Origin: Variovorax boronicumulans NBRC 103145
GTDB taxonomy: Bacteria; Pseudomonadota; Gammaproteobacteria; Burkholderiales; Burkholderiaceae_C
NCBI RefSeq assembly: GCF_001591345.1
Contig: NZ_BCUS01000006.1
Coordinates: forward strand, 1 to 64,000
DNA length: 64,000 nucleotides
Direction of reading: 5' to 3'
Positions 4,522 to 63,661 of the stretch are shown here, in pieces (position 1 is the first letter of the stretch; every line of letters starts with the position of its first letter). Below the pieces are notes generated by a model, which was given only the letters and a program-made list of their open reading frames with translations, had not been told where the DNA came from and did not search any database. A program made the position numbers and the translations under genes.

Positions 4522-5442
4522 TCAGCCCAGCGCGAACTCGGGCCGCGGGCCGCCTACGCGCGGCAGGCCCATGATCTGGCGCGCCTCGGCCGGCGTCGCC
4601 ACTTCCATGTCGAGCTCGCGGATCACGCGCACGATGCGCTCGGTGAGCTGCACGTTGGTGGCCAGCTCGCCGTGGCGGAAGTAGAGGTTGTCTTCCAGCC
4701 CCACGCGCGCATGTCCGCCCAGCAGCAGCGCCGCCACGTTGGCTTCGAGCTGCGACATGCCGATGCCGCTCACGCCGAAGATGGCGCCCTTGGGCAGCGT
4801 GTCGACCATCATCTGCAGGTTGCGCGGCGAGTACGGCATCGCGTTCTGGAAGTTGCGGTGCACGTTCATCACCAGGTTGACGAAGTAGGGCTCGTCGTCA
4901 TGGCCTTCCTCGATCAGCGTGGTCGTGTCCTGCAGGATGTGCGTGGGGCTGAACACCTCCCACTCGGGCTTGATGCCGCGCGCCTTCATGCCGGCGGCGA
5001 GCTCGCGCCCGCGCGTGATGGGCGTGTCCATCAGGATCTGCTTGCCTTCGAAGCTCAGGTTGAGCGTGGTGGCGTCCAGCGTGCACATCTCGGCGCCGGC
5101 GTCCATGCCCTTGATGCGCTCTTCCCACGCGATCTCCCAGCGATCGCCGGCCAGCGGCTTCACCATGTCGCCGTGCACGCCGCCGCCGGTGGAGTTGTTC
5201 AGCACGATGTCGCAGCCGGCCGCACGGATGCGGCTGTTGATGTCGCGGTACACCTCGGCGTTGCAGGTGGCGCCGTCGTCGGGGCGGCGCGCGTGGATCG
5301 CGACCACGCTGGCGCCGGCGTTCCAGCAGCGCAGCACGTCGGCGGCGATCTCGGCGGGCTGGGTGGGGAGGTGGGGGTTCTGCGACTTGTGCGCCATGCC
5401 GCCGGTGGGGGCGATGGTCACGATCACTTTGCGCTTCGACAT
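4522..5442 (-). CDS. BKACE family beta-keto acid cleavage enzyme
   Basis: A 306-residue TIM-barrel protein of the 3-keto-5-aminohexanoate cleavage family, which converts a 3-keto acid plus acetyl-CoA to acetoacetate plus a new acyl-CoA. Family signatures are IVTIAPTGG at the N-terminus, VLNNSTGGG near 140 and [10 protein letters not shown] near 265, whose Glu is a zinc ligand. In the usual first zinc motif HxH the first His is replaced: here it reads [12 protein letters not shown], leaving only His50. It appears to be the first gene of the minus-strand operon, 33 bp upstream of the binding-protein gene. With the carnitine-dehydrogenase-like gene it suggests oxidation and cleavage of a 3-hydroxy acid. 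Confidence 0.85.
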
Positions 5443-22991: not shown

Positions 22992-23936
22992 ATGAACGAG
23001 CATGTAGACGCGGTGCTGGCCACCGCGCCCGAGGGCGGCACCGGCAACCACGGCGCCGCCGTGGCCGGGGAGGCCAAGAACCCATTGCTGGTGGCACTGG
23101 GCGACCGCGTGCGCAACCTGCGCGCGCAGCGCGGCCTCACGCGCAAGGCGGTGGCCCTGTCGGCCGACGTGTCGGAGCGCCACCTGGCGAACCTGGAATA
23201 CGGCATCGGCAACGCATCGATCCTGGTGCTGCAGCAGGTGGCCGGGGCGCTGCACTGCTCGCTGGCCGAGCTGGTGGGCGACGTGACGACCAGCTCGCCC
23301 GAGTGGCTGCTGATCCGCGAACTGCTGGAGCACCGCAGCGAGGCCGACCTGCGCCGCGTGCGCGTGGCGCTCGGCGAGATGCTGGGCACGGCTTCGGTCG
23401 ACCCGGCGCGGCACCGGCGCATCGCGCTCGTGGGGCTGCGCGGCGCGGGCAAGTCGACGCTGGGGCAGATGCTGGCCGAGGACCTCGAAATTCCATTCAT
23501 CGAGCTGAGCCGCGAGATCGAGAAGCTCGCGGGCTGCAGCGTGCGCGAAATCCACGACCTGTACGGCACCAACGCCTACCGCCGCTACGAGCGCCGCGCG
23601 CTGGAAGAGGCGGTGCAGATCTACAGCGAGGTGGTCATTGCCACGCCCGGCGGCATCGTGTCCGACCCGGCCACCTTCAACGAGCTGCTCGCCCACTGCA
23701 CCACCGTGTGGCTGCAGGCCGCGCCCGAGGAGCACATGGGCCGCGTGGCCGCGCAGGGCGACACCCGCCCGATGGCCGCCAGCAAGGAGGCCATGGAAGA
23801 CCTGCGCCGCATCCTGAACGGGCGCGCCGCTTTCTATTCGAAGGCCGATCTGTCGGTCGATACCAGTGGGAAGACGTTGCCGCAGAGCTTCCAGGCCTTG
23901 CGCGCGGTTGCTCGGCAGTCGATGGGGTTGGCCTGA
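22992..23936 (+). CDS. boxR: BoxR, benzoyl-CoA-responsive regulator (HTH plus shikimate kinase-like domain)
   Basis: A 314-residue protein. An XRE-type HTH (about 35-92; RNLRAQRGLTRKAVALSADV then SERHLANLEYGIGNAS) is joined to a shikimate-kinase-like domain from about 140, with P-loop GLRGAGKST at 148-156 and IELSREIEKLAG after it. This architecture is diagnostic of BoxR/BzdR regulators, whose kinase-like domain senses benzoyl-CoA and releases repression. The SD is GAGGAA upstream of ATG 22992. It sits between the two divergent benzoate operons, and TGCA-type sites occur at both promoters. Some long N-terminal residues (1-30) are low complexity. Confidence 0.93.
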   Translation: MNEHVDAVLATAPEGGTGNHGAAVAGEAKNPLLVALGDRVRNLRAQRGLTRKAVALSADVSERHLANLEYGIGNASILVLQQVAGALHCSLAELVGDVTTSSPEWLLIRELLEHRSEADLRRVRVALGEMLGTASVDPARHRRIALVGLRGAGKSTLGQMLAEDLEIPFIELSREIEKLAGCSVREIHDLYGTNAYRRYERRALEEAVQIYSEVVIATPGGIVSDPATFNELLAHCTTVWLQAAPEEHMGRVAAQGDTRPMAASKEAMEDLRRILNGRAAFYSKADLSVDTSGKTLPQSFQALRAVARQSMGLA

Positions 23937-23965
23937 GTTTCTGCTTGCTGGCGTTGGCGGCGTCG

Positions 23966-24215
23966 TTCAGGGCGACGCTCCCGCCGACGGGGTACCTTGC
24001 TCCGCGAATGTCCTCCGGCCTGCGGCCTCCCCCTTAATTTCGCTGCGCAAGGCACCCCATCGGCGTGAGCGTTTTCAGAGCCGTTGTTGATCGGCTGTGA
24101 CCCGACCGCGTGCCCCCGTGCGCAGGGCACTGGGTGCTTCCCGCAGCGAAATTAAGGAGGAGGGCGAAGCCCGGGGGACATTCGCGGAGGGAAGTACCCG
24201 GTGTCCTGCGCACAC
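23966..24215. repeat. 250-bp composite inverted-repeat element, copy 1
   Basis: Two arms of about 70 bp (23989-24060 and 24131-24199) are imperfect reverse complements, each containing CCGCGAATGTCC and TTAATTTCGCTGCG blocks. They are separated by a variable core of about 70 bp. The same 250-bp unit occurs in the opposite orientation at 63373-63622. It has no coding content and lies between boxR and the boxC promoter. Either a MITE-like or another dispersed extragenic repeat. Confidence 0.8.
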
Positions 24216-24285
24216 CCCCTGATCCGTCGTGCGCCCCGCACAAGCCCTGCCCGATCCTGAAATCTGAAAAAAAGCACAACAGGCA

Positions 24286-24317
24286 TTGACTTGCCTGTTT
24301 GCATGCAGCATGATGCA
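24286..24317 (+). promoter_or_regulatory. boxC promoter with overlapping BoxR operator
   Basis: TTGACT (24286-24291), 17-bp spacer, CATGAT (24309-24314). A perfect TGCA-N6-TGCA at 24304-24317 covers the -10 region, so a bound repressor would block polymerase. The leader to boxC would be about 70 nt. Confidence 0.65.
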
Positions 24318-24392: not shown

Positions 24393-26066
24393 ATGACCGA
24401 CACCACGCTCCAGGCGCCCCAGCGCGTCGACTACCGCATCGAACCCGCCCAGTACCGCCACTGGTCGCTGAGCTTCGACGGCGCCATTGCGCGCCTCACG
24501 CTCGACATCGCGGAAGACGGCGGCATCCGCCCCGGCTACAAGCTCAAGCTCAACAGCTACGACCTGGGCGTGGACATCGAGCTGAACGACGCGCTCAACC
24601 GCATCCGCTTCGAGCACCCCGAAGTGCGCAGCGTGATCGTCACCAGCGGCAAGGACCGCATCTTCTGCTCCGGCGCCAACATCTTCATGCTGGGCGTTTC
24701 CAGCCACGCCTGGAAGGTGAACTTCTGCAAGTTCACCAACGAGACGCGCAATGGCATGGAAGACACCTCCAAGCACTCGGGCCTGAAGTTCCTCGCGGCC
24801 GTGAACGGCGCCTGCGCCGGCGGCGGCTACGAGCTGGCACTGGCCTGCGACGAAATCCTGCTGGTCGACGACCGCTCCTCGTCCGTCTCGCTGCCCGAAG
24901 TGCCGCTGCTCGGCGTGCTGCCCGGCACCGGCGGCCTGACCCGCGTGACCGACAAGCGCCACGTGCGCCACGACCTCGCCGACATCTTCTGCACCAGCGT
25001 CGAAGGCGTGCGCGGCCAGCGCGCGGTCGACTGGCGCCTGGTCGATGCCGTGGCCAAGCCCGCGCAGTTCCCCGCTGCCGTGCAGGAACGCGCCACGCAA
25101 CTCGCCGCCGGCAGCGACCGCCCCGCCGGCGCCAAGGGCGTGGCCCTGACCCGCGTCGAGCGCACCGACAGCGCCGACGGCATCGCGTACGCCAACGTCA
25201 ACGTGCAGATCGACCGCAGCAAGCGCACCGCGACGATCACCGTGAAGGCGCCCACCGGCGCGCAGCCGGCCGACATCGCCGCCATCGAAGCCGCGGGCGC
25301 CGCCTGGTGGCCGCTGGCCGTGTGCCGCGAGCTCGACGACGCCATCCTGAACCTGCGCACCAACGAGCTCGACGTCGGCACCTGGCTGCTCAAGACCGAA
25401 GGCGACGCCGCCGCCGTGCTCGCCTCCGATGCCGTGATGTTCGCCAACAAGGACCACTGGCTGGTGCGCGAAACCATCGGCGCGCTGCGCCGCACGCTGG
25501 CGCGCCTGGATGTGTCGTCGCGCAGCCTCTTCGCGCTGGTCGAGGCCGGCTCGTGCTTCGCCGGCACGCTGGCCGAGCTGGCCTTCGCGGCCGACCGCAC
25601 CTACATGCTCGCGCTGCCCGACGATGCCGCGCGCGCCCCGAAGCTCACGCTCAACGAATTCAACTTCGGCTTCTTCCCGATGGTGAACGACCAGAGCCGC
25701 CTGCAGCGCCGCTTCTATGAAGAGGCCGCCCCGCTCGAAGCCGCGCGCGCCGCCGCCGGGCAGGCGCTCGACGCCGACGAAGCCGTGAAGCTCGGCCTCG
25801 TGACCGCTGCGCCCGACGACATCGACTGGGACGACGAGATCCGCATCGCCATCGAAGAGCGCGCCGCCATGTCGCCCGACGCACTCACCGGCCTCGAAGC
25901 CAACCTGCGCTTCGCCAGCAAGGAGAACATGGCCACCCGCATCTTCGGCCGCCTCACGGCCTGGCAGAACTGGATCTTCAACCGCCCCAACGCCGTCGGC
26001 GAGAAGGGCGCGCTGAAGGTCTACGGCACCGGTCAAAAAGCCGGCTTCGACCTGAACCGCGTTTGA
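24393..26066 (+). CDS. boxC: Benzoyl-CoA-dihydrodiol (2,3-epoxide) lyase BoxC
   Basis: A 557-residue double-length crotonase-superfamily enzyme that hydrolytically opens 2,3-epoxybenzoyl-CoA to 3,4-dehydroadipyl-CoA semialdehyde and formate. Motifs are IFCSGANIFMLGVSSHAWKV near 90-108 and GACAGGGYELALACDE near 140-155; the second half has LFALVEAGSCFAGTLAEL. Length matches BoxC, unlike the roughly 260-residue ordinary crotonases. Start: ATG 24393 with CAGGAGAC upstream. First gene of the boxCBA-maoC operon; boxB begins 34 bp after its stop. Confidence 0.95.
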   Translation: MTDTTLQAPQRVDYRIEPAQYRHWSLSFDGAIARLTLDIAEDGGIRPGYKLKLNSYDLGVDIELNDALNRIRFEHPEVRSVIVTSGKDRIFCSGANIFMLGVSSHAWKVNFCKFTNETRNGMEDTSKHSGLKFLAAVNGACAGGGYELALACDEILLVDDRSSSVSLPEVPLLGVLPGTGGLTRVTDKRHVRHDLADIFCTSVEGVRGQRAVDWRLVDAVAKPAQFPAAVQERATQLAAGSDRPAGAKGVALTRVERTDSADGIAYANVNVQIDRSKRTATITVKAPTGAQPADIAAIEAAGAAWWPLAVCRELDDAILNLRTNELDVGTWLLKTEGDAAAVLASDAVMFANKDHWLVRETIGALRRTLARLDVSSRSLFALVEAGSCFAGTLAELAFAADRTYMLALPDDAARAPKLTLNEFNFGFFPMVNDQSRLQRRFYEEAAPLEAARAAAGQALDADEAVKLGLVTAAPDDIDWDDEIRIAIEERAAMSPDALTGLEANLRFASKENMATRIFGRLTAWQNWIFNRPNAVGEKGALKVYGTGQKAGFDLNRV

Positions 26067-63334: not shown

Positions 63335-63661
63335 GGTCAGCGCTTTCGTTGGGGGGTGCTGTTGTCCGGGGCGTGTGCACAGGCCACCGGGTACTTCCCT
63401 CCGCGAATGTCCCCCGCCCTTCGGGCTCCTCCTTGATTTCGCTGCGGGAAGCACCCAGCGTCCTGCGCACGATGGGCGCGGTCGTGGTGCGGGCCGATCA
63501 ACGACCGCACTACCCAACGCTCACGTCGATGGGGTGCCTTGCGCAGCGAAATCAAGGAGGAGGGCGAAGCCCGGGGGACATTCGCGGAGCAAGGTACCCC
63601 GTCGGCGGGAGTGCGCCCTGAAGCATTTTCTGCAACGCGGAAAAAGCAGCGCGACCTCATC
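63335..63661. other. 327-bp amiC-amiR intergenic region
   Basis: Mostly filled by the 250-bp composite repeat (copy 2). The remaining roughly 40-bp flanks show no gene. Elsewhere amiC and amiR are usually adjacent or nearly so, so the gap is unusual. Confidence 0.6.
63373..63622. repeat. 250-bp composite inverted-repeat element, copy 2
   Basis: Reverse-complement relative of 23966-24215, with the same outer ends and the same pair of inner inverted arms, each carrying CGCGAATGTCC and GATTTCGCTGCG (the other copy has AATTTCGCTGCG). The core between arms differs. It interrupts the stretch between amiC and amiR. No coding content. Confidence 0.8.

Follow-up and report, generated by a model that had tools for sequence, protein, structure and literature searches.

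Related repeat systems and the boxR-boxC unit

The repeat described here is closest in kind to REPINs and BIMEs, which are found with REP-associated tyrosine transposases. In the parts of the published accounts available to us, these are extragenic inverted doublets that occur in many copies and show compensatory changes; strand-specific recognition of their hairpins and the interpretation of singles as remnants are further points of likeness (PMC3116915, PMC8266576). The same accounts give REPIN hairpins of 20-50 nt with a GTAG or CGTC tag, whereas each hairpin here, a 25-pair outer stem plus a core, measures ~105 nt and ends in CGCCCYGAAC. Our repeat also differs from REPINs in its purine-rich core with a C-GNA-G minihairpin and in a conserved fold that consists of two hairpins, and we found no tie to a Y1 gene.

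Other known elements share fewer features. MITEs of DDE transposons are likewise short, lack a gene, carry inverted terminal tails and are, by inference, mobilised in trans. Our repeat differs from them in its covarying single-strand fold and may also lack target-site duplications, none of which was visible in 15 units inspected by eye, and a parent transposon, which did not appear in the loci that we read. Hairpins of IS200/IS605-type ends and integron attC sites act on one strand, and recognition of a folded single strand is in principle shared, but the two halves of our repeat are constrained on opposite strands. BRE (Beta-proteobacterial repeat element) is also short (~90 bp) and usually intergenic, and occurs in Bordetella and in Comamonadaceae including Polaromonas, Delftia and Acidovorax (PMC3110155). 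It is reported as tandem arrays, as opposed to the divergent pairs found here (PMC3110155); the two may or may not share their sequence.

Apart from BRE as a possible match, we found no description of the repeat in open-licence PMC literature. Rfam models detected only a tRNA in the window (the whole 64,000-nt stretch analysed); the best weak match on the unit had an E value of 0.035 and 24.5 bits against a cut-off of 90, and membership of an Rfam family was rejected since nothing exceeded the gathering score. The repeat would be REPIN-like in kind and itself apparently undescribed in that literature.

The unit lies between boxR (22992-23936) and boxC (24393-26066). The Pfam domains of the encoded proteins, HTH and shikimate-kinase-like upstream and enoyl-CoA hydratase family downstream, fit the gene names, as we take these to be the domains that BoxR and BoxC carry. 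The earlier note had described a 250-bp composite repeat in this gap, with two long inverted arms and conserved ends. All of this is borne out, with a slightly longer extent of ~259 bp: the arms (23987-24057 and 24132-24202) are 71 nt long and 83% complementary, and the ends are terminal tails, GTTCAGGGCG on the left and a degenerate inverse, ACCCCCTGAT, on the right. The features of the two window copies and the adjoining gap are:

23965-24223, no strand assigned: whole L-R unit, its L end facing the boxR stop codon
23965-23974, minus strand: left tail, GTTCAGGGCG on the plus strand and CGCCCTGAAC on the purine strand of L
23975-24072, minus strand: L hairpin, whose constrained purine-rich strand is the minus strand
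24009-24035, minus strand: L core, AAGGRGGAG-(C-GNA-G minihairpin)-GGRGGACA, in the G,A form
24073-24117, no strand assigned: spacer between the L and R hairpins, bearing the TTGATCGGC motif
24118-24213, plus strand: R hairpin, with an unbroken 25-pair outer stem and G.T/G.U wobbles on the plus strand
24154-24180, plus strand: R core, AAGGRGGAG-(C-GNA-G minihairpin)-GGRGGACA, in the A,G form
24214-24223, plus strand: right tail, a degenerate CGCCCTGAAC
24304-24317, plus strand: TGCA-N6-TGCA, outside the unit and intact (1.7 chance matches expected per whole window)
63364-63623, no strand assigned, reverse orientation: second window unit, with R on the minus strand (63370-63475) and L on the plus strand (63512-63618)

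An effect of the unit on boxC expression, which had been suggested from its placement, finds no support in the sequence. The TGCA-N6-TGCA spacing is the one reported for BoxR sites in the accessible part of the source (PMC6449761). Both this site and a promoter-like site at 24286-24314 lie downstream of the unit and, by reading, are largely retained in relatives with and without it. A GGCATTGACTTGCC block is present, with at most two changes, in 30 of 30 boxR-boxC loci, whether they contain the unit or not. The boxC promoter region beside the unit is intact, and we would expect the unit to have little effect on boxC.

Two hairpins constrained on opposite strands

It had also been proposed that the unit could fold into one large hairpin. 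As far as energy is concerned this stands, the long hairpin being thermodynamically favoured for the unit as a whole; folded as single-stranded DNA, the 250 nt reach -84.4 kcal/mol (z = -8.5; 0 of 200 shuffles were as good). However, the long hairpin is not the conserved fold. Stems inside the halves are paired at a frequency of 0.949 (124 units), and in 86 typed units the L and R arms are no more alike within a unit (identity 0.440) than between units (0.429), while their inner hairpins match in 9% of same-unit and 12% of different-unit comparisons. We therefore rejected the long hairpin as the conserved fold; the unit is two divergent hairpins, L and R, of ~105 nt each.

L and R have a common core but different stems. 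Read on its purine-rich strand, each half consists of an outer stem of ~25 pairs, a small GCA/GGA loop, a five-pair stem and then N-T-N-AAGGRGGAG, the minihairpin, GGRGGACA, a descending arm and the tail CGCCCYGAAC. Most units that we read end in the inverted tails GTTCRGGGCG and CGCCCYGAAC. As in a REPIN-type inverted doublet with regular spacing, adjacent halves less than 1 kb apart were divergent in 93 of 93 cases, with the purine strands pointing outwards, and the core-to-core gap was 110-129 nt in 82 of 92 pairs. For these and the following core counts, halves were distinct by exact sequence only, so that orthologues remain among them. In one locus (L080, about 1080-1366), an L hairpin with other stem letters lies inside an older unit, apparently nested.

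The core contains two purine (R) positions, and the search pattern admitted all four combinations. Among 239 halves, 205 had A,G, 28 had G,A, four had A,A and two had G,G, so that 233 carried exactly one A and one G; the G,A form was found in several genera. We propose that this purine.purine covariation reflects an A.G contact. While the minihairpin stem is variable, 200 of the 239 halves have a C[GNA]G loop (GAA 127, GCA 67, GTA 5, GGA 1); with a finder that favours short loops, no UUCG and a single GNRA tetraloop (GGAA) appeared. According to the available portion of one study, GNA loops form stable DNA minihairpins and GAA melts 6 C above GTA (PMC6479982), with which the excess of GAA over GTA agrees. 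Since C[GNA]G loops prevail and GNA is stable in DNA minihairpins, folding as single-stranded DNA is favoured. The four GG runs might also allow a G-quadruplex.

Covariation was scored in two alignments. The first, A1, comprises 40 halves of the host genome aligned with MAFFT and not fitted to a structure, and was scored against its own RNAalifold consensus. Paired columns held a pair in 99.2% of cells, and the covariation score was 0.281 compared to 0.125 after shuffling (0 of 500 shuffles reached 0.281) and at most 0.093 for slid structures; the number of further pair types (17) was not above that in shuffles (16.3). The second, A2, spans genera with 69 rows fitted to the model, including Variovorax rows and some opposite-strand matches, and scored 0.481 compared to 0.165 for shuffled and at most 0.080 for slid structures. 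The five-pair stem, which is GCGAA/TTCGC in Variovorax, covaries between genera (GCGAA/TTCGC, GCGAC/GTCGC and GCGGC/GCCGC). The stem of each half is thus kept by compensatory changes. In loci L231-L237, from other families (f13 and f21), the five-pair stem often reads GCGAAGT...ACATGAGC, where tandem G.A pairs could take the place of GCGAA/TTCGC.

The exceptions to Watson-Crick pairing reveal the strand. At the 24 inner positions of the outer stem (244 of 249 halves), we counted 5066 Watson-Crick pairs, 557 G.T, 25 A.C and 208 others on the purine strand. The excess of G.T over A.C held for L (232 to 7), R (225 to 12) and halves of uncertain type (100 to 6), and also in 65 halves less than 80% alike (148 to 10). 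Extending the arms and allowing gaps in the alignment lowered it (641 to 275), and it reverses just beyond the stem, where positions 25 and 26 show 20 and 74 A.C versus 5 and 24 G.T. Because the non-Watson-Crick pairs are mostly G.T and rarely A.C, each half is constrained as a single strand, with L and R on opposite DNA strands; one transcript therefore cannot explain both constraints. Folded as single-stranded DNA, the purine strand also reached lower z scores than its complement (R, -7.1 versus -4.1; L, -6.3 versus -4.1). We therefore take the purine strand to be the one that folds in each half. Wobbles concentrate at two positions of the outer stem: at position 7, G.T is the commonest pair (137 of 245 halves), and at position 13 it is T.G (103 of 245), just ahead of CG (102).

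Copies, carriers and orthologous sites

A covariance model found four halves, that is, two units, in the window, and a scan up to E = 1 added nothing except the same four on the opposite strand. The second unit, which confirms the reported reversed recurrence 39 kb away, is flanked by genes for a periplasmic binding protein and an AmiR/ANTAR protein, both of them on the minus strand. In the host genome (6.72 Mb, 287 contigs), the 250-bp query identified at least 40 distinct places. Of these, 18 are nearly full length and the other 22 partial, in some cases at contig edges; as 40 of 55 candidates were scored, the total is a floor. Copies within this genome are up to 99.1% identical (30 loci).

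The repeat extends well beyond this genome. BLAST detected it in 31 of 37 genomes of the same genus, including the host, and in one of 24 from other genera. Model R1 found it in at least 82 of 100 genomes of the genus (E 1e-5), at least 84 of 200 of the family (E 1e-3; 65 of 141 genera) and at least 13 of 300 of the order (E 1e-5), eight of them from two other families, where the divergent pair recurs. At least 118 stretches carry it. Among the 80 listed these are mostly Variovorax, with further carriers in Rhodoferax, Ramlibacter, Hydrogenophaga, Pseudorhodoferax, Xylophilus, Polaromonas, other members of Comamonadaceae or Burkholderiales, and one Stagnimonas MAG. Three plasmid records contain the repeat, all of them Variovorax replicons of ~1.2 Mb. 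Carriage by phages was rejected, as viral and phage sequences gave no match.

Occupancy of orthologous sites is polymorphic. A strong or nearly strong boxC match was present in 93 of 100 genomes, and in the best 30 places the boxR-boxC gap held the unit or part of it in 10 (the host included) and lacked it in 15; four contained a different repeat, and in one boxR was not next to boxC. The shared occupancy may go back to one old insertion followed by losses. The different, G+C-rich repeat, CCCCCAGGCT...CGCCAACCCCC..., lies at L074 1247-1287, L077 1248-1288, L081 1246-1286 and L082 1242-1282. A similar one is present at the L002 site in genome G032. This other repeat is possibly BRE, and it is our impression that the copies in the four loci may fit BRE better.

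We also compared 13 other sites, the second window unit and 12 more, with three close relatives, aligning 18 junctions. At 11 of the 13, at least one relative lacked an intact unit. One site (L005) is filled only in the host genome and empty in all three relatives, and the second window site has no unit in two of them. Six sites (L036, L004, L021, L006, L007 and L039) have no full unit in at least one relative, and three (L002, L008 and L027) show internal deletions or another repeat in at least one. Deletion derivatives include the L002 and L027 sites in G270 and the L008 site in G032, and footprints with end arms only remain at the L036 site in G032 and the L007 site in G270. At the L003 site in G270, 1.4 kb separate the flanks with no model match, which probably makes this the twelfth site without an intact unit; the L034 site is filled in all three relatives, judged from spacing only. 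Junctions with empty sites are ragged.

The earlier note had allowed that only these two copies might exist and that homologous loci might always contain them; neither is the case. Its suggestion of a family of non-autonomous mobile or structured elements is supported by the many copies, the polymorphic sites and the covarying hairpins. Given its dozens of places in this genome, its presence in many Variovorax and other related bacteria, and a shape that persists as the letters change, the repeat is probably a small mobile element that hitch-hikes. We think it more likely than not that the unit is a REPIN-like non-autonomous mobile repeat, moved in trans by a putative single-strand-specific enzyme. 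Each half would be recognized as a folded single strand ending in CGCCCYGAAC-3', one per DNA strand, and the enzyme, encoded elsewhere, would copy or move the unit to positions shortly after stop codons, at the ends of genes. We regard solo halves and the short footprints as sequence remnants, presumably formed by internal deletion.

We identified no transposase or other gene that mobilises the repeat, and in the loci that we read there was no autonomous copy with L and R around an enzyme gene. A composite transposon around a gene was considered for one case only and rejected: at L125 about 4566-5414 (= L051 1567-2415), L-side and R-side halves ~640 bp apart flank a complete gene for a small membrane protein, with no transposase. 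The TGA stop codon of that gene overlaps a TGATC like that of the spacer of the repeat.

Gene ends and candidate mobilisers

To relate units to genes, we drew on 86 units that had 450 bp of flank and whose L/R type was certain, taking one unit from each of 63 flank clusters, and used a simple ORF finder and unit ends estimated from the core. Of the 63, 30 had the stop codon of a long ORF within 160 bp of the L side alone and 10 of the R side alone; 13 had one on both sides and 10 had none. The preference for L is significant (p=0.002), with a median L-side stop distance of 12 bp. The two units of the window conform to this: L at 23965 follows the end of boxR by 28 bp, and L at 63623 follows the end of the periplasmic-binding-protein gene (stop codon 63662-63664, minus strand) by 38 bp. 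Insertion into the ends of transcribed genes could explain the preference, as could selection. In four R-only copies (L017, L018, L030 and L203), the upstream long ORF terminates at the TGA of the repeat's own TGATC.

Orientation was also biased. Between tandem genes, 52 units were concordant and 11 were not, counts that include orthologues, since halves were distinct by exact sequence only. Of the 123 units in this comparison, 37 were of uncertain or equal type. For R singles, the upstream gene within 300 bp reads towards the repeat in 10 cases and away in two; for L singles, the downstream gene reads towards it in eight and away in one, and the upstream gene towards in three and away in two. 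By the strands of the neighbouring genes alone (heuristic gene calls, with 11 elements falling inside a called gene), the context of 77 pairs was tandem in 50 cases, convergent in 19 and divergent in eight, compared to 322, 112 and 93 of 527 in the background. In G260 and G011 alone the numbers were 23, 6 and 6 of 35, which shows no avoidance of divergent gaps. Replication skew was weak, and orientation seems to follow the adjacent genes.

A more tentative reading goes further. The repeat could belong to a new class of paired-hairpin element, whose two ends, one on each DNA strand, are read as folded single strands by enzymes of a family so far without a link to repeats. Its fold would combine a conserved purine.purine contact with a C-GNA-G DNA minihairpin, and insertion would be linked to the ends of transcribed genes, with one orientation preferred.

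A role in mRNA would likewise agree with the orientation relative to genes. In that case the R hairpin, which is sense to the upstream gene, would act at mRNA 3' ends as a stabiliser or as a site for RNase III or a protein, and its RNA fold would be under selection. The preference of stop codons for the L side, the tandem-gene orientation and the R singles all accord with this, and R as RNA folds at -67.6 kcal/mol (z -8.2). Yet L, on the strand antisense to that mRNA, is equally strictly constrained; the loops are mainly C-GNA-G triloops and not the UUCG or GNRA type; and a simple pattern scan, covering loops of 3-8, found no terminator-like site at the hairpins, for which reason an intrinsic terminator was also rejected. 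We regard a role as an RNA element as doubtful.

The REPIN-like mobile repeat that we favour would need an enzyme, and the genome's own Y1 (RAYT/TnpA-REP-like) transposase is the obvious candidate from REPINs. The host genome has one Y1_Tnp gene, 96 of 100 genomes of the genus have Y1_Tnp, and an inverted doublet with singles as remnants is what the accessible REPIN literature describes (PMC3116915). However, RAYT genes flanked by their own repeats have no counterpart here, as no model match up to E = 1 lies within 1.7-1.9 kb of the sole Y1_Tnp gene (L009, L040), and by reading we saw no GTAG/CGTC tag. Nor is the occurrence of the repeat tied to that of the gene: all 18 repeat-negative genomes of the genus have Y1_Tnp, while four of the 82 repeat-positive genomes lack it (G018, G022, G035 and G310; completeness 89, 88, 99 and 69). 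Two genomes without Y1, G035 (one contig, 15 halves) and G080 (21 matches, 0 Y1 candidates), hold copies up to 95.9% and 97.3% identical, respectively (15 loci each). An old loss of the enzyme from such carriers is possible. We rejected a RAYT as the obligate mobiliser, given the absence of nearby copies and the mismatch in occurrence, and consider mobilisation by the genome's own Y1 enzyme unlikely.

An old, now immobile palindrome, spread by recombination and decaying by slippage, would account for the several deletion derivatives but is highly improbable given the L005 site filled only in the host among four relatives, the near-identical copies and the one-stranded wobble pattern.

Repeats of this kind shape intergenic DNA across a bacterial family. 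How such elements are recognised and inserted can be approached through three sharp, testable clues: the halves are constrained on opposite strands, the two R positions covary, and units lie behind stop codons in a preferred orientation. These features detach a REPIN-like life-style from RAYT, the enzyme it has been equated with.
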